From Veillonellaceae bacterium (GTDB lineage Bacteria; Bacillota_C; Negativicutes; UBA1444): a DNA stretch of 64,000 nt. The stretch covers positions 1-64,000 of the forward strand of contig JAAZNU010000021.1 of assembly GCA_012798135.1 (NCBI GenBank), read 5' to 3'. How positions within the stretch are numbered: position 1 is the stretch's first letter; each line of letters begins with the position of its first letter. Under the pieces are notes generated by a model. That model was not told where the DNA came from. It saw only the letters and a program-made list of their open reading frames with translations, and searched no databases. The position numbers and the translations under genes were made by a program. Shown piece by piece: positions 4,141 through 14,429 of this stretch.

Positions 4141-5481
4141 GTGCGCATTTGTATGGTCGGAACCGGCTACGTCGGCCTGGTGACGGCGGCCTGCTTTTCA
4201 GAGCAGGGCAACGAAGTCTGGTGCGTCGACGTCGACAGCGAAAAAGTGCAACAACTCCAGAACGGCCGGATCCCGATCTTCGAACCGGGTCTGCAGGACA
4301 TCGTGAAGCGCAACGCCGCCGAGGGCAATCTGCATTTCACCACCGACCTCGCCGAGGGCGTGCGGAACAGCCTGTTCATTTTCATCGCCGTGGGCACGCC
4401 CACATTGGCCGACGGATCTTCGGACCTGCAATATGTGTTTGAAGTCGCCCGCGGCATCGGTGAATGCATGGACGCCTACAAACTCGTCGTCGTGAAATCC
4501 ACAGTGCCGGTGGGAACGACGCTCGCAGTCGGGGAGGCGGTCCGACGGGAACTGACGGCGCGGCAGCTCGCCGACCTGGATTTCGACGTGGCGTTCTGCC
4601 CGGAATTTCTGAAGGAAGGCTCGGCGGTCGAAGATTTCATGAAACCGGACCGCATCATCATCGGCGCCGGGAACAGCCGTGTCGCCGAACTGCTGAAGGA
4701 ACTGTACTCGCCGTTCAACATGCGTGAGCCCCGCATCCTGACCATGGGCATCGCTTCGGCGGAACTGAGCAAATATGCCGCGAACGCCATGTTGGCCACC
4801 CGCATCAGCTTCATGAACGAGCTGGCCGGTTACTGTGACCTGGTGGGCGCCGACATCGAGGAGATTCGTCGGGGGATCGGCGCCGATTCCCGGATTGGTT
4901 CGGCGTTTCTCTACGCCGGTCTCGGCTATGGCGGTTCCTGTTTCCCGAAGGATCTGAAAGCCCTGATCGGCACGGCGGCGACCCGCGACTACGACTTTTC
5001 CATCCTGCGCGCCGTGGAGGATGTCAATCAGCGGCAGCGGCAGCGCCTGCTGGATAAAATTCGGCAGCACTTCGCCGACGATCTCACCGGCCGCCGGTTC
5101 GCCCTCTGGGGCCTCAGTTTCAAACCGCACACCGACGACATCCGGGAAGCCCCGGCCCTCGACCTGATCCGGGCCCTGCTCGTCGCCGGTGCCAGCGTGG
5201 CCGCATTCGATCCGGCCGCCGCGGCGAACGTTCGCAAAGCCCTTGGCGACAACCCGGCGATCCAATATGTGCAGGATCGCTACGAAGCGCTGCGCGACGC
5301 CGACGCCCTGGTGCTCGTCACCGAATGGCCGGCGTTCCGCAAACCCGACTTCGACCGCATGAAAACCCTGCTGAAACAGCCGGTCATCTTCGACGGCCGC
5401 AACCAGTTCGACCCGCCCCAACTGCGGCGGCAGGGCTTCACCCTGTATACGATGGGCAGGGGGCGCCATGGACAAGATTGA
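4141..5481 (+). CDS. ugd: UDP-glucose 6-dehydrogenase
   Basis: 446 aa. Oxidises UDP-glucose to UDP-glucuronate with two NAD+, supplying acidic sugars for surface glycans. The GTG at 4141 is chosen because GGGAGGAA lies 5 nt upstream and the NAD-binding strand follows at once (GTGYVGL at residues 7-13). The catalytic cysteine is Cys267 in GYGGSCFPKD. The central dimer domain (SAELSKYAANAMLA) and the C-terminal UDP-binding domain (LWGLSFKPHTDDIREAP) are intact. It overlaps the next gene by 14 nt, and that gene's product uses UDP-glucuronate, so the two form a pathway pair. Probably the first gene of the plus-strand operon. Confidence 0.95.
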   Translation: MRICMVGTGYVGLVTAACFSEQGNEVWCVDVDSEKVQQLQNGRIPIFEPGLQDIVKRNAAEGNLHFTTDLAEGVRNSLFIFIAVGTPTLADGSSDLQYVFEVARGIGECMDAYKLVVVKSTVPVGTTLAVGEAVRRELTARQLADLDFDVAFCPEFLKEGSAVEDFMKPDRIIIGAGNSRVAELLKELYSPFNMREPRILTMGIASAELSKYAANAMLATRISFMNELAGYCDLVGADIEEIRRGIGADSRIGSAFLYAGLGYGGSCFPKDLKALIGTAATRDYDFSILRAVEDVNQRQRQRLLDKIRQHFADDLTGRRFALWGLSFKPHTDDIREAPALDLIRALLVAGASVAAFDPAAAANVRKALGDNPAIQYVQDRYEALRDADALVLVTEWPAFRKPDFDRMKTLLKQPVIFDGRNQFDPPQLRRQGFTLYTMGRGRHGQD

Positions 5482-12237: not shown

Positions 12238-12835
12238 CGGGGCCCGCCTGGAAGCTTGCGGCGTGTTCGCCCGCTATCACGGAGCCACGTTCGAGAACAT
12301 CGAAGACCGGGGCGTGCCGGCCGAACTTCGCGGTCAGGTCGACGCCGTGCGCGGTTACGCCGACGCGATCGACGACAACATTCGACAGGGTTGCGGCCTG
12401 CTGCTGCGGGGACCGGTAGGAACGCTGAAAACCACCCTGGCGGTGGCGGTGCTGCAATGCTGGCTGCGCCGGGGCGGTTCGGCCCGGTTTTTGACCATGC
12501 CGTCGCTCGTCGACAACATTTTCGCCGCTAAGGCGGTATCCCCGGACGAATGGAATCAATTCGAAATCCGGCTGCGGCAGACGCCGCTGCTCGTGCTCGA
12601 CGACCTCGGCGCGGAATGGTCGAGTGGCTGGCCGCTCACCAAAGTCGACGCCATCATCGCCGAACGCTACAACCGACGGCGTTCGACCATCATCACCACG
12701 AACCTCGGCAGCGCCGCCCTGCGCAGCCGCTACAGCGACCGGATGGTCGACCGGCTGCGGGGCACCTGCCGGATCATCACCTTCAACACCCCGGCCAGCT
12801 TGCGCCGGTCGCCACTTGCGTCTGACGCAAGCTAA
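12095..12835 (+). CDS. DnaC/IstB-like helicase loader ATPase
   Basis: 246 aa AAA+ ATPase. ATG at 12095 after GGGAGGGAG. Residues 1-85 are a variable helical/linker N terminus expected to touch the helicase. The Walker A region reads RGPVGTLKTTLAVAVL, with Leu where the canonical GxxxxGK(S/T) has Gly before Lys. Walker B is LLVLDDLGAEW, and IITTNLG gives the sensor region. Near the C terminus, SDRMVDRLRGTC matches the DnaC arginine-finger region. It would load the replicative helicase at the adjacent iteron origin. Its start is 143 nt inside the initiator frame, shifted by +1. An IstB transposase partner is unlikely because no transposase is adjacent. Confidence 0.85.
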   Translation: MAEVSEVDWQAMLDRFRKYAQEAPPGPADSDPDPGPPTGGASSNTDCDGARLEACGVFARYHGATFENIEDRGVPAELRGQVDAVRGYADAIDDNIRQGCGLLLRGPVGTLKTTLAVAVLQCWLRRGGSARFLTMPSLVDNIFAAKAVSPDEWNQFEIRLRQTPLLVLDDLGAEWSSGWPLTKVDAIIAERYNRRRSTIITTNLGSAALRSRYSDRMVDRLRGTCRIITFNTPASLRRSPLASDAS

Positions 12836-12875
12836 ACCCTTTGACTATCAGGGTTCACGGGACTATAATATAGTC
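12835..12875 (+). promoter_or_regulatory. Strong promoter with overlapping operator-like palindromes
   Basis: TTGACT (12841-12846), 17-nt spacer, TATAAT (12864-12869): a near-consensus housekeeping promoter. A perfect 7-1-7 palindrome GACTATA-A-TATAGTC (12861-12875) covers the -10, and AACCCT/AGGGTT (12835-12840, 12850-12855) flanks the -35. Both look like repressor sites. The promoter fires into the structured RNA and the DUF1659 cluster. Confidence 0.8.
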
Positions 12876-13014
12876 ATAAGGTTGATTTTACAAAGTTCAT
12901 AGCGCTTTGGCGGGAGAAAAGGCGCAAAAAATATGGGTATAACGCGATTACGCGTTTACCATAGATCTACTCCCGCCTCACGAAAAGGCACGACTGACCG
13001 GTCGTGTCTTTTCG
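12876..13014 (+). ncRNA. Putative structured leader RNA or small RNA ending in a terminator
   Basis: Between the promoter and the DUF1659 gene, an RNA of about 140 nt would fold strongly. GGCGGGAG (12909-12916) pairs with CTCCCGCC (12970-12977). Inside, AACGCG/CGCGTT (12941-12946, 12951-12956) closes an ATTA loop, extended by ATGG/CCAT. A competing helix GCGC/GCGC (12902-12925) could disrupt the outer stem. A 14-bp terminator-like hairpin follows. The arrangement fits an attenuator, riboswitch-like leader or free sRNA. I do not recognise the family. Confidence 0.55.
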
Positions 13015-13020
13015 TATTTC
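12981..13020 (+). terminator. Terminator-like hairpin before the DUF1659 gene
   Basis: CGAAAAGGCACGAC (12981-12994) pairs with GTCGTGTCTTTTCG (13001-13014): 14 bp with one G-U, 6-nt loop, then TATTTC. It could end the leader RNA or act as a conditional terminator in front of the DUF1659 gene, whose ribosome site begins about 20 nt later. Confidence 0.65.
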
Positions 13021-13052
13021 CCGGGAAATCTTTCGCAAAGGAGGGATGAAAC

Positions 13053-13271
13053 ATGGCTGTTACCAGCAATCCGCAATCAGGCCGCCTCACCATCGATGTG
13101 ACCGAGACCGTCGACGGCAAGGAAACGGTGCGGTCCCGGAACTTCACCGGACTGAAGGCCAGCGCGACCGACCAGGCCGTCTACGACGTCGGCATGGCGA
13201 TCGGCAGCTTGCAGAAGTGGCCGATCGTCAGAATCAGCCGCACCCACGAAATCTTCCTCACCAGCGAATAA
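13053..13271 (+). CDS. DUF1659 domain protein
   Basis: 72 aa, covered entirely by the DUF1659 pattern: MAVTSNPQSGRLTIDV at the start, a middle FTGLKASATDQAVYDVGMAI and an end IVRISRTHEIFLTSE. ATG at 13053 after AAAGGAGGG. Function unknown; DUF1659 proteins are small Bacillota proteins that, from memory, usually sit next to DUF2922 and YvrJ genes, as here. No signal peptide or membrane segment. The stop codon lies in the loop of a long hairpin (13250-13290), which suggests processing or decay control of the mRNA end. Confidence 0.88.
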   Translation: MAVTSNPQSGRLTIDVTETVDGKETVRSRNFTGLKASATDQAVYDVGMAIGSLQKWPIVRISRTHEIFLTSE

Positions 13272-13290
13272 GCGCTGGGTGAGGAAGATT
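13250..13290 (+). other. 17-bp hairpin spanning the DUF1659 stop codon
   Basis: 13250-13266 pairs with 13273-13290 over 17 bp with a single bulged G at 13279 and a 6-nt loop (13267-13272) that contains most of the TAA stop. No T-run follows, so it is not a classical intrinsic terminator. It may protect or process the transcript next to the large folded RNA. Confidence 0.7.
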
Positions 13291-13308
13291 GGATTGACTC
13301 ATCTCCGA

Positions 13309-13520
13309 ATGAGGGAGTGCTGAATAATAGAGGCTTGCATTGGCGGGAATCGTGTCATTCGTCGGCGAAGCGGAGCTGTTTGTCCGGGTAAAACCGACAG
13401 GAAGTCGGTTTTAGTCCCGAGCGACCGGAAGGAGCTTTCGGGACGGCCCGGCAAAGGCGACGCGAACCGTAACGAATGCTGATGATCGCCACAGCAAGCC
13501 GGTTATTCAGCCTGCCTCAT
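13309..13520 (+). ncRNA. Large structured RNA of about 210 nt, family not recognised
   Basis: A chain of perfect, nested complementary arms joins the ends: 13309-13314/13515-13520 (6 bp), 13319-13327/13503-13511 (9 bp), 13332-13338/13494-13500 (7 bp), 13341-13345/13487-13491 (5 bp), 13356-13362/13472-13478 (7 bp) and 13384-13388/13447-13451 (5 bp). The last helix encloses two hairpins, 13390-13398/13404-13412 (9 bp) and 13414-13420/13438-13444 (7 bp). There is no open reading frame with a ribosome site. CTCAT at 13298-13302 could compete for ATGAG (13309-13313). It could be a cis leader of the DUF2922 gene or an independent RNA. raiA-type RNA is one family to test; I cannot confirm it. Confidence 0.72.
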
Positions 13521-13556
13521 GGAAAACAAATCAATTCCAGAAAGGAGGAAACCGCC

Positions 13557-13769
13557 ATGGATAAGGAAGCAGAACTCGTCTTCGGCACCTCGCTCGACAG
13601 CCAGCACACCATGAACGTGCAGGACCCGCGCGACGACCTCACGCTGGCCCAGACCCGCGCCGTCATGCAGACCGTCATCACCCAAAACATCTTCGCCACG
13701 AAAACCGGCGAACTGGTCAGCATCGGCGAAGCCCGCATCCACACATCCGAGACCACCCCGCTGGTCTGA
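13557..13769 (+). CDS. DUF2922 domain protein
   Basis: 70 aa. ATG at 13557, preceded by AAAGGAGG at a spacing of 8 nt. The sequence AELVFGTSLDSQHTMNVQDP, then LTLAQTRAVMQTVITQNIF and a C-terminal IGEARIHTSETTPLV is the DUF2922 pattern. Unknown function; typically paired with DUF1659 (13053-13271) and YvrJ in Bacillota. No signal peptide or membrane segment. Its leader overlaps the 3' end of the large folded RNA by proximity (37 nt), so RNA folding could control it. Confidence 0.88.
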   Translation: MDKEAELVFGTSLDSQHTMNVQDPRDDLTLAQTRAVMQTVITQNIFATKTGELVSIGEARIHTSETTPLV

Positions 13770-13786
13770 ACCGGGCGGGAAACGAC

Positions 13787-14020
13787 ATGGAACTGACACA
13801 AATGGTTGGTCAAGTCGGTTTCCCGATCGCGGTCGCCATGTGGCTGCTCGTCCGCCTGGACAAGAAACTCGAGTCCTTCGAACGGGCAGCCGCGGCGCTC
13901 GCGGCTCGCCTCGAGGAGCACAGCAACCGCTGCCTCGAGTGCCGGGAATACCGCCGCCACAATACTGAATCTGGACATACGCAATGTCCGAAAGACTGTC
14001 AGACGCAGTGTCAGGCATAG
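13787..14020 (+). CDS. YvrJ family membrane protein with cysteine-rich tail
   Basis: 77 aa. The N-terminal part (MVGQVGFPIAVAMWLLVRLD at residues 5-24) is the YvrJ signature with one membrane segment, followed by an amphipathic helix. YvrJ proteins are often about 50 aa; here a tail adds C-x2-C (CLEC) and CPKDCQTQC, five cysteines in total, which suggests metal binding or disulfide links. The ribosome site is weak (GGGCGGG). Function unknown. It follows DUF2922 by 17 nt and is probably cotranscribed. Confidence 0.82.
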   Translation: MELTQMVGQVGFPIAVAMWLLVRLDKKLESFERAAAALAARLEEHSNRCLECREYRRHNTESGHTQCPKDCQTQCQA

Positions 14021-14041
14021 CATTATGTTGCGTCAGAAGAG

Positions 14042-14137
14042 AATTTTGGCTTTTATGTAGGTGGCATTAGATTGAGCAGTGTAATTTGTCGACGAATTCC
14101 TGCGATAATCTACAGCCACCGGCATAAAACCAAAACT
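14042..14137. repeat. 92-nt extended imperfect hairpin / long inverted repeat
   Basis: Nested arms: TTTTGG/CCAAAA (14044-14049, 14130-14135), TTTTATG/CATAAAA (14051-14057, 14123-14129), GGTGGC/GCCACC (14060-14065, 14115-14120), TAGATT/AATCTA (14068-14073, 14107-14112), GCAG/CTGC (14076-14079, 14100-14103) and AATT/AATT (14083-14086, 14095-14098), with the loop around GTCGAC. Small, regularly spaced internal loops separate the arms. No gene is inside. It could be a folded RNA, a MITE-like relic or a cruciform site; it lacks the boxes of an integron attC. Confidence 0.7.
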
Positions 14138-14159
14138 TTTGGATTAAATTTGGATTAAA
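14138..14159 (+). repeat. Tandem 11-bp direct repeat upstream of the acidic-protein gene
   Basis: TTTGGATTAAA occurs twice in tandem (14138-14148, 14149-14159), immediately after the long hairpin and about 10 nt before a TATGAT-like box and the AGGAGG ribosome site of the next gene. It may be a regulator-binding site. No convincing -35/-10 pair was found. Confidence 0.45.
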
Positions 14160-14186
14160 TCTTGATTATGATAGGAGGTCCTCAAC

Positions 14187-14429
14187 ATGAACCCATGGAT
14201 CAAATATAACGAAGCCGTCCTGGCCATCCTGAACGTCGTCAAACAGACCGTGCCGCTGACCGGCGCCCAGCGGCGGCGGGTCGACGAAGCCAAAGAACTC
14301 GTCGAGGCGGCCATCGACATCATCGAGATCGAGGACGACGACGAATATGACGATGACGATATCGACAATGACGACATCGACGAAGACAAGCCGGACGATG
14401 AACCTGTCGACGGGCGTCGCCTACAGTGA
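14187..14429 (+). CDS. Small acidic protein of unknown function
   Basis: 80 aa with a strong AGGAGG 9 nt before the ATG. Residues 1-50 form a helical stretch (YNEAVLAILNVVKQTVPLTG). Residues 50-70 are almost only Asp, Glu and Ile/Tyr (a run of D-D-D-E-Y-D type), then a short tail. No signal peptide or membrane segment. Such acidic tails may bind divalent metal or basic partners, but no family is recognised. It ends 4 nt before the amidase start, in the same operon. Confidence 0.75.
   Translation: MNPWIKYNEAVLAILNVVKQTVPLTGAQRRRVDEAKELVEAAIDIIEIEDDDEYDDDDIDNDDIDEDKPDDEPVDGRRLQ

Follow-up and report, generated by a model that had tools for sequence, protein, structure and literature searches.

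A dispersed, MITE-like structured repeat with putative paired CsrA sites, represented by a copy between the DUF1659 and DUF2922 genes of a Veillonellaceae bacterium

CsrA and RsmA are sequestered by RNAs (CsrB, CsrC and RsmX/Y/Z) that come from dedicated sRNA genes, one or a few in number. When Gardner and Eldai (2014) reported CsrA-binding motifs in TwoAYGGAY and proposed CsrA-binding sRNAs in Clostridia, predicting this family as a clostridial counterpart, RNAs of this kind were known from Gammaproteobacteria only (PMC4333381). One stem of TwoAYGGAY has, according to the same paper, tandem G-A pairs. TwoAYGGAY had been listed as a likely RNA and an unlikely cis-regulator (Weinberg 2010, PMC2864571), and Rfam assigns the type Cis-reg to it (RF01731). 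In the titles and abstract beginnings of the papers listed on CsrA with clostridial sRNAs or sponges and on CsrA with REP and MITE repeats, TwoAYGGAY is nowhere described as mobile or multi-copy; a prior description elsewhere is possible.

The element addressed here lies in the window, i.e. the whole stretch of 64,000 nucleotides that was analysed. Like CsrB, CsrC and RsmX/Y/Z, it displays GGA in hairpin loops and a motif of the CAGGAAG type; unlike them, it carries two sites on a long rod, occurs as dispersed copies and is only predicted to bind CsrA. MITEs and REP/REPIN repeats are likewise short, non-coding, dispersed, intergenic and bordered by inverted repeats. The present repeat differs from them by its two asymmetric internal hairpins with an invariant GGA, and by arms that co-vary between copies (L037 versus L044); neither a transposase nor a target duplication was found in the searches reported below.

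A rod capped by two hairpins

The spacer between the DUF1659 and DUF2922 genes had been predicted to hold a large, strongly folded element, and this folding is real. Indeed, the fold of the region 13230-13530 has an energy of -149.7 kcal/mol (z -10.8), a stability that none of 100 shuffled sequences equals, and that of the element alone (13314-13517) has -106.5 kcal/mol (z -8.5), equalled by none of 200. Stacked helices form a rod capped by two hairpins (13390-13412 and 13414-13444). This architecture, which the original prediction had proposed, is seen in the window fold and again in the consensus structure of the 24 full copies described below. The separate 17-bp hairpin that it had placed around the stop codon of the preceding gene was found as well, at 13250-13290; in it the last bases of the DUF1659 gene are followed, after the stop codon, by their near-perfect inverted copy (17 bp). 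This hairpin falls outside the repeat, whose borders were inferred from relatives. On the other hand, the proposal that a CTCAT motif competes with the outermost helix to give two states concerns the outermost arms; these vary from copy to copy, and the comparison offers no backing for such a switch. The structured element and its repeat nature are established.

The features of the locus are given below; R1 and R2 are covariance models built respectively from six copies (double changes in 27/47 pairs) and from the 24 full copies.

12841-12869, + strand: sigma-70-like promoter match (TTGACT-17-TATAAT, 11/12 consensus, pattern match only), 5' of DUF1659 and reading towards the element
13053-13271, + strand: DUF1659 gene, left neighbour (PF07872, 62.2 bits)
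13250-13290, + strand: separate hairpin, -27.5 kcal/mol, whose loop contains the stop codon TAA of DUF1659 (13269-13271); outside the repeat and the aligned core
13314-13517, + strand: whole structured repeat element (fold z -8.5; ends placed by eye from homology borders among the copies of genome G001)
13335-13499, + strand: conserved core (R1 152.1 bits, R2 138.8 bits; the window copy is in both models, so these scores arise by construction)
13390-13412, + strand: hairpin 1, 9 bp, loop AGGAA with a C-G closing pair; CAGGAAG inside, GGA at 13400-13402
13414-13444, + strand: hairpin 2, GGA at 13427-13429 (27 nt after that of hairpin 1)
13557-13769, + strand: DUF2922 gene, right neighbour (PF11148, 70 bits)
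14062-14120, + strand: stump of a second repeat copy just 3' of the YvrJ gene (R1 27 bits, E 1e-5; R2 25.9 bits, E 2e-5)

The plus strand of the window bears the GGA loops, folds the more stably of the two and is also the sense strand of the DUF1659-DUF2922-YvrJ operon. Two promoter-like sites occur in 12600-14400, versus 0.7 in shuffled sequences. The DUF2922 gene, which has its own ribosome site, comes directly 3' of the rod, which in the window is not followed by a T-tract. The stump downstream of YvrJ retains the base of the rod and has lost both terminal hairpins. The leader that separates the promoter match from DUF1659 (12876-13055) also folds strongly (z -5.3), includes a 16-bp hairpin at 12980-13015 and matches no Rfam family at cut-off.

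Copies in relatives and their dispersal

Scanning genomes with an alignment of DUF2922 led to two loci, one from a Sporomusaceae MAG (L002, genome G001) and one from a Clostridia MAG (L001, genome G002). The DUF1659-DUF2922 spacer of the former carries the same rod and two hairpins, but here it is the opposite strand that corresponds to that of the window. The spacer between the DUF1659-like and DUF2922 genes of the latter has a different structure, without any match to the repeat models at E up to 1; this structured spacer (4740-4994) contains repeated CAGGTAGC units. R1 finds 14 matches in G001 and 14 in another genome, G003, and R2 again gives 14 and 14. A class-wide search of 300 genomes returned matches in these two only, its negatives being weak as the best nine candidates per genome were scored; the collection contains just two genomes from the family and order of G001. 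The full copies number 24, one from the window, 12 from G001 and 11 from G003. A blastn comparison of the spacer with phage and plasmid sequences gave no match, and none of the viral contigs searched with the DUF2922 alignment was confirmed. One contig of the viral collection (L116, 1733-1866) displays a hairpin-pattern match with a weak R1 score (24.9 bits).

The comparison with relatives that had been suggested as a check on the structure gives a clear answer, since compensatory double changes (at least one) affect 30/41 consensus pairs in a MAFFT alignment of the 24 full copies. This alignment was cut at the model match borders and is not structure-biased, unlike the model-fitted alignment of 28 matches, which leans towards structure and in which the stump from the window is included together with further partial matches. 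In the latter, 91.2% of cells pair versus 72.7% after shuffling, and covariation amounts to 0.475 versus 0.163 +/- 0.010 for shuffled alignments (reached in 0/500), and does not exceed 0.091 when the partners are slid. Furthermore, the GGA strand is the better-folding one in every copy out of 24 except L041 (23/24), and there are 61 G-U cells across these copies versus 21 A-C cells.

The original prediction treated the element as a property of the DUF1659-DUF2922 spacer, a view that its distribution contradicts. Two of the five DUF2922 loci of G001 have it in this spacer, both times in the orientation opposite to that of the window, and the other three (L004, L006 and L007) have a short spacer devoid of it. 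Further G001 copies lie at unrelated loci with unrelated neighbours. Near two of the DUF2922 loci of this genome, a group II intron domain (L004, 1088-1164, 44.7 bits) and a long ORF resembling a reverse transcriptase by eye (L002, 5768-7606) were noticed.

Copies found at unrelated G001 loci fall into groups whose members share 81-90% identity (L027, L029 and L033), 87% (L037 and L044) or 76-81% (L035, L039 and the copy at 1237 of L042). Homology within these groups stops at inverted repeats (GGAACCGCTGAAATAAT...ATTATTCAGCGGTTCC in the group of L029 and L033), giving an end-to-end length of about 205-210 bp. The ends of the window element (GGAGTGCTGAATAATA / TTATTCAGCCTGCC) are diverged, and a search tolerating up to three mismatches finds the G001 end GGAACCGCTGAANTAAT at a single site of the window, 48005, away from the element, for 0.71 expected by chance. 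Searching for this end gave 17 matches in G001 versus 3 for the reversed control, and 3 in G003 versus 2. Since the end is enriched in G001 but not in G003, the terminal repeat marks only a G001 subgroup. In this subgroup the repeat displays clear terminal inverted repeats, one of the traits of MITEs; another, a short, non-coding sequence present in several copies at unrelated loci, was found as well.

Facing inverted-repeat pairs are 208-317 bp apart in G001 and G003, both of which consist of many contigs, and none is spaced at insertion-sequence length. Direct similarity between the two flanks exceeds the 95% level of cross-pairs in 1/24 window-type copies, a test in which duplications of a few bases are undetectable, and inverted flank repeats that could be insertion scars exceed it in 1/24. 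Adjacent copies in opposite orientation occur as one pair in each of these genomes, at G001:C51:95356/95620 (L042, 1237-1668) and G003:C119:5097/5439 (L028, 1501-2007). Globally, the element is a copy of a structured, MITE-like repeat, dispersed and about 205 bp in length.

Relation to TwoAYGGAY

The Rfam scan of the window yields no family at cut-off, raiA included, and the eight matches listed for 12820-14100 at E up to 10 do not comprise raiA. The original prediction had called for a comparison with raiA and other large bacterial RNAs and considered the family unknown, but a described relative exists. Indeed, the best permissive match is TwoAYGGAY (13368-13465, + strand, E 0.65), at 23.8 bits for a gathering cut-off of 43 bits that the best relative, at 38.9 bits, does not reach either. 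In G001 and G003, where R1 has 28 matches, RF01731 has 14 at E up to 1; every one of these coincides with a repeat copy and lies below cut-off. The alignment to this model, over 1-168, and the 24-copy consensus both give a rod closed around two adjacent hairpins, as in TwoAYGGAY. The GGA that TwoAYGGAY requires in both terminal loops is present in 24/24 copies, and the full AYGGAY is literal in some copies, that of the window excepted.

In the reverse direction, R1 recovers 7/22 RF01731 loci, and R2, for E up to 0.01, recovers 23/33, with place and strand in agreement. As L053 and L101 are the same copy, the latter figure corresponds to 22/32 distinct loci, which comprise 13/13 from genome G417 and 9/19 from other genomes. 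This family, too, is multi-copy: of 199 genomes sampled from the phylum, 26 have RF01731 matches at E up to 0.001 (21 over cut-off), with at least 13 copies in the top genome, a lower bound as 13 candidates were scored per genome. To judge from sequence and predicted fold, the repeat of the window is a divergent relative of TwoAYGGAY that lies outside the curated bounds of this family. Both have a long rod and two adjacent GGA-loop hairpins, and TwoAYGGAY is likewise multi-copy in many of its genomes; they differ in that the sequence of the window's group has diverged and in that its terminal repeats are unlike those of the G417 copies.

The 13 TwoAYGGAY copies of G417 (L101-L113) align closely and none of them lies between divergent genes. 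Their flanks were compared for 12 copies, L111 being left out because its ends were not found. In 11/12 copies, the two flanks resemble each other more than the left flank resembles the right flank of any other copy. The same terminator-like hairpin lies on both sides of the copy, over 20-31 bases in 10/12, as though a complete terminator had been duplicated on insertion. Among RF01731 loci (18 of 20 fetched, one of which, L053, is a G417 copy), flank similarity is above the 95% level for 4/18 in direct and 9/18 in inverted orientation. The RF01731 copy of genome G331 (L063, 1501-1656, minus strand) has a 21-base perfect repeat with a hairpin on both flanks. A search of the literature for IS1182-type terminator targeting found none.

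Putative CsrA sites and competing readings

GGA occurs in hairpin 1 and in the hairpin 2 stretch of every one of the 24 copies, and the second GGA always follows the first by 26-28 nt. This spacing falls among the 10-63 nt over which CsrA bridges two sites, with an optimum above 18 (PMC7652899). Hairpin 1 contains the exact Rsm/CsrA consensus [A/U]CANGGANG[U/A] quoted in PMC6849547 in half of the copies (12/24) and CA(N)GGANG in 23/24, and ANGGA occurs in the hairpin 2 stretch of 17/24. The complementary strand of the core has the exact consensus in 0/24. The window copy fits only the looser form, with CAGGAAG and a loop of five bases instead of six; CAGGAAG agrees with the CsrB repeat type, CAGGA(U/A/C)G (PMC7652899). 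The weight of the consensus 10-mer comes from its place in a conserved loop and not from its rarity, since it has nine further occurrences in the 64-kb window on either strand. The nine-pair stem of hairpin 1 counts against recognition by CsrA because most hairpins obtained by SELEX had four or fewer contiguous pairs (PMC7652899).

The distribution of csrA is consistent with such a link. The gene is found over the Pfam cut-off in 136/199 genomes of the phylum, including 25 of the 26 TwoAYGGAY carriers versus 111 of the 173 other genomes (Fisher p 3.4e-4, a value that ignores kinship and completeness); the single carrier without it, G478, was rechecked. Both G001 and G003 have csrA.

On balance, the element is probably a mobile, structured CsrA-binding element, a reading in which transcription, binding of CsrA and mode of movement are all inferred. 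The GGA strand would be transcribed, in the window as part of the DUF1659-DUF2922-YvrJ operon, and the transcribed rod would present its two hairpins in such a way that one CsrA dimer bridges both. Such an RNA could serve as a decoy for CsrA or, within the mRNA that contains it, as a segment to which CsrA binds. The repeat would have spread through genomes by transposition, without a transposase of its own. Mobility is suggested by subgroups that are 76-90% alike at unrelated loci, by the terminal inverted repeats of G001 and by the empty DUF1659-DUF2922 sites of the same genome. The orientation relative to neighbouring genes counts against this reading, since it is about even, many copies therefore not lying on the sense strand of the adjacent gene. 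Indeed, among 27 elements (24 full and 3 partial), 7 are sense, 9 antisense, 6 convergent, 2 divergent and 3 unassigned according to a home-made, codon-based and crude gene caller, which also provided the stop-codon distances given below.

The repeat might instead act at the DNA level: a transposase would recognise the folded single strand through its GGA-loop hairpins, as for REP hairpins and single-strand transposons, the RNA being incidental and CsrA irrelevant. This alternative is unlikely, although it accounts readily for the terminal inverted repeats, the dispersal and the occurrence in both orientations. The bias towards the GGA strand could also result from folded single-stranded DNA (the element folds with z -7.4 as such). 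Against it stand the exact CsrA consensus in hairpin 1 of half of the copies and the co-occurrence of csrA; furthermore, no autonomous partner or transposase was located in G001 and G003 by a search that relied on inverted repeats only.

A bulky structure that ends or protects transcripts at their 3' end, irrespective of CsrA, appears quite improbable. A gene stop codon is found within 35 nt of the core in 9/12 full G001 copies, at L033 the stop codon is even supplied from within the terminal repeat of the element, and the absence of TwoAYGGAY copies between divergent genes in G417 fits as well. However, such a close stop codon is found in just 1/11 full G003 copies, and the distance is 63 nt in the window, where the rod is followed not by a T-tract but directly by a gene with its own ribosome site. 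The position of the copies may merely reflect where insertion is tolerated, and a 3'-end role leaves the invariant GGA of both hairpins unexplained.

A cis-regulatory, riboswitch-like RNA of the DUF2922 gene, to which the position just 5' of its ribosome site and the Rfam type of TwoAYGGAY would point, is very improbable and largely refuted by position and orientation: the same spacer carries the element reversed at two G001 loci and lacks it at three, and the neighbours of other copies are unrelated, observations that rule out an operon-linked riboswitch. Chance complementarity, in favour of which no point was found, can practically be dismissed given the folds (z -10.8 and -8.5), the 30/41 pairs with double changes and a covariation above that of shuffled alignments.

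The reading as a mobile CsrA-binding element can be extended, as a tentative proposal drawn from comparison of sequences, to TwoAYGGAY as a whole. TwoAYGGAY and the group of the window may form a class of mobile repeats with ready-made paired CsrA sites, the spread of which would seed CsrA decoys; some of them, as in G417, may use intrinsic terminators as insertion sites and duplicate the entire hairpin, which would be an unusual mode of insertion. If this is true, a family that Rfam types as 'Cis-reg' would be recast as a mobile repeat, and, if these repeats carry paired CsrA sites, the copy number gained could shape CsrA regulation in Firmicutes.
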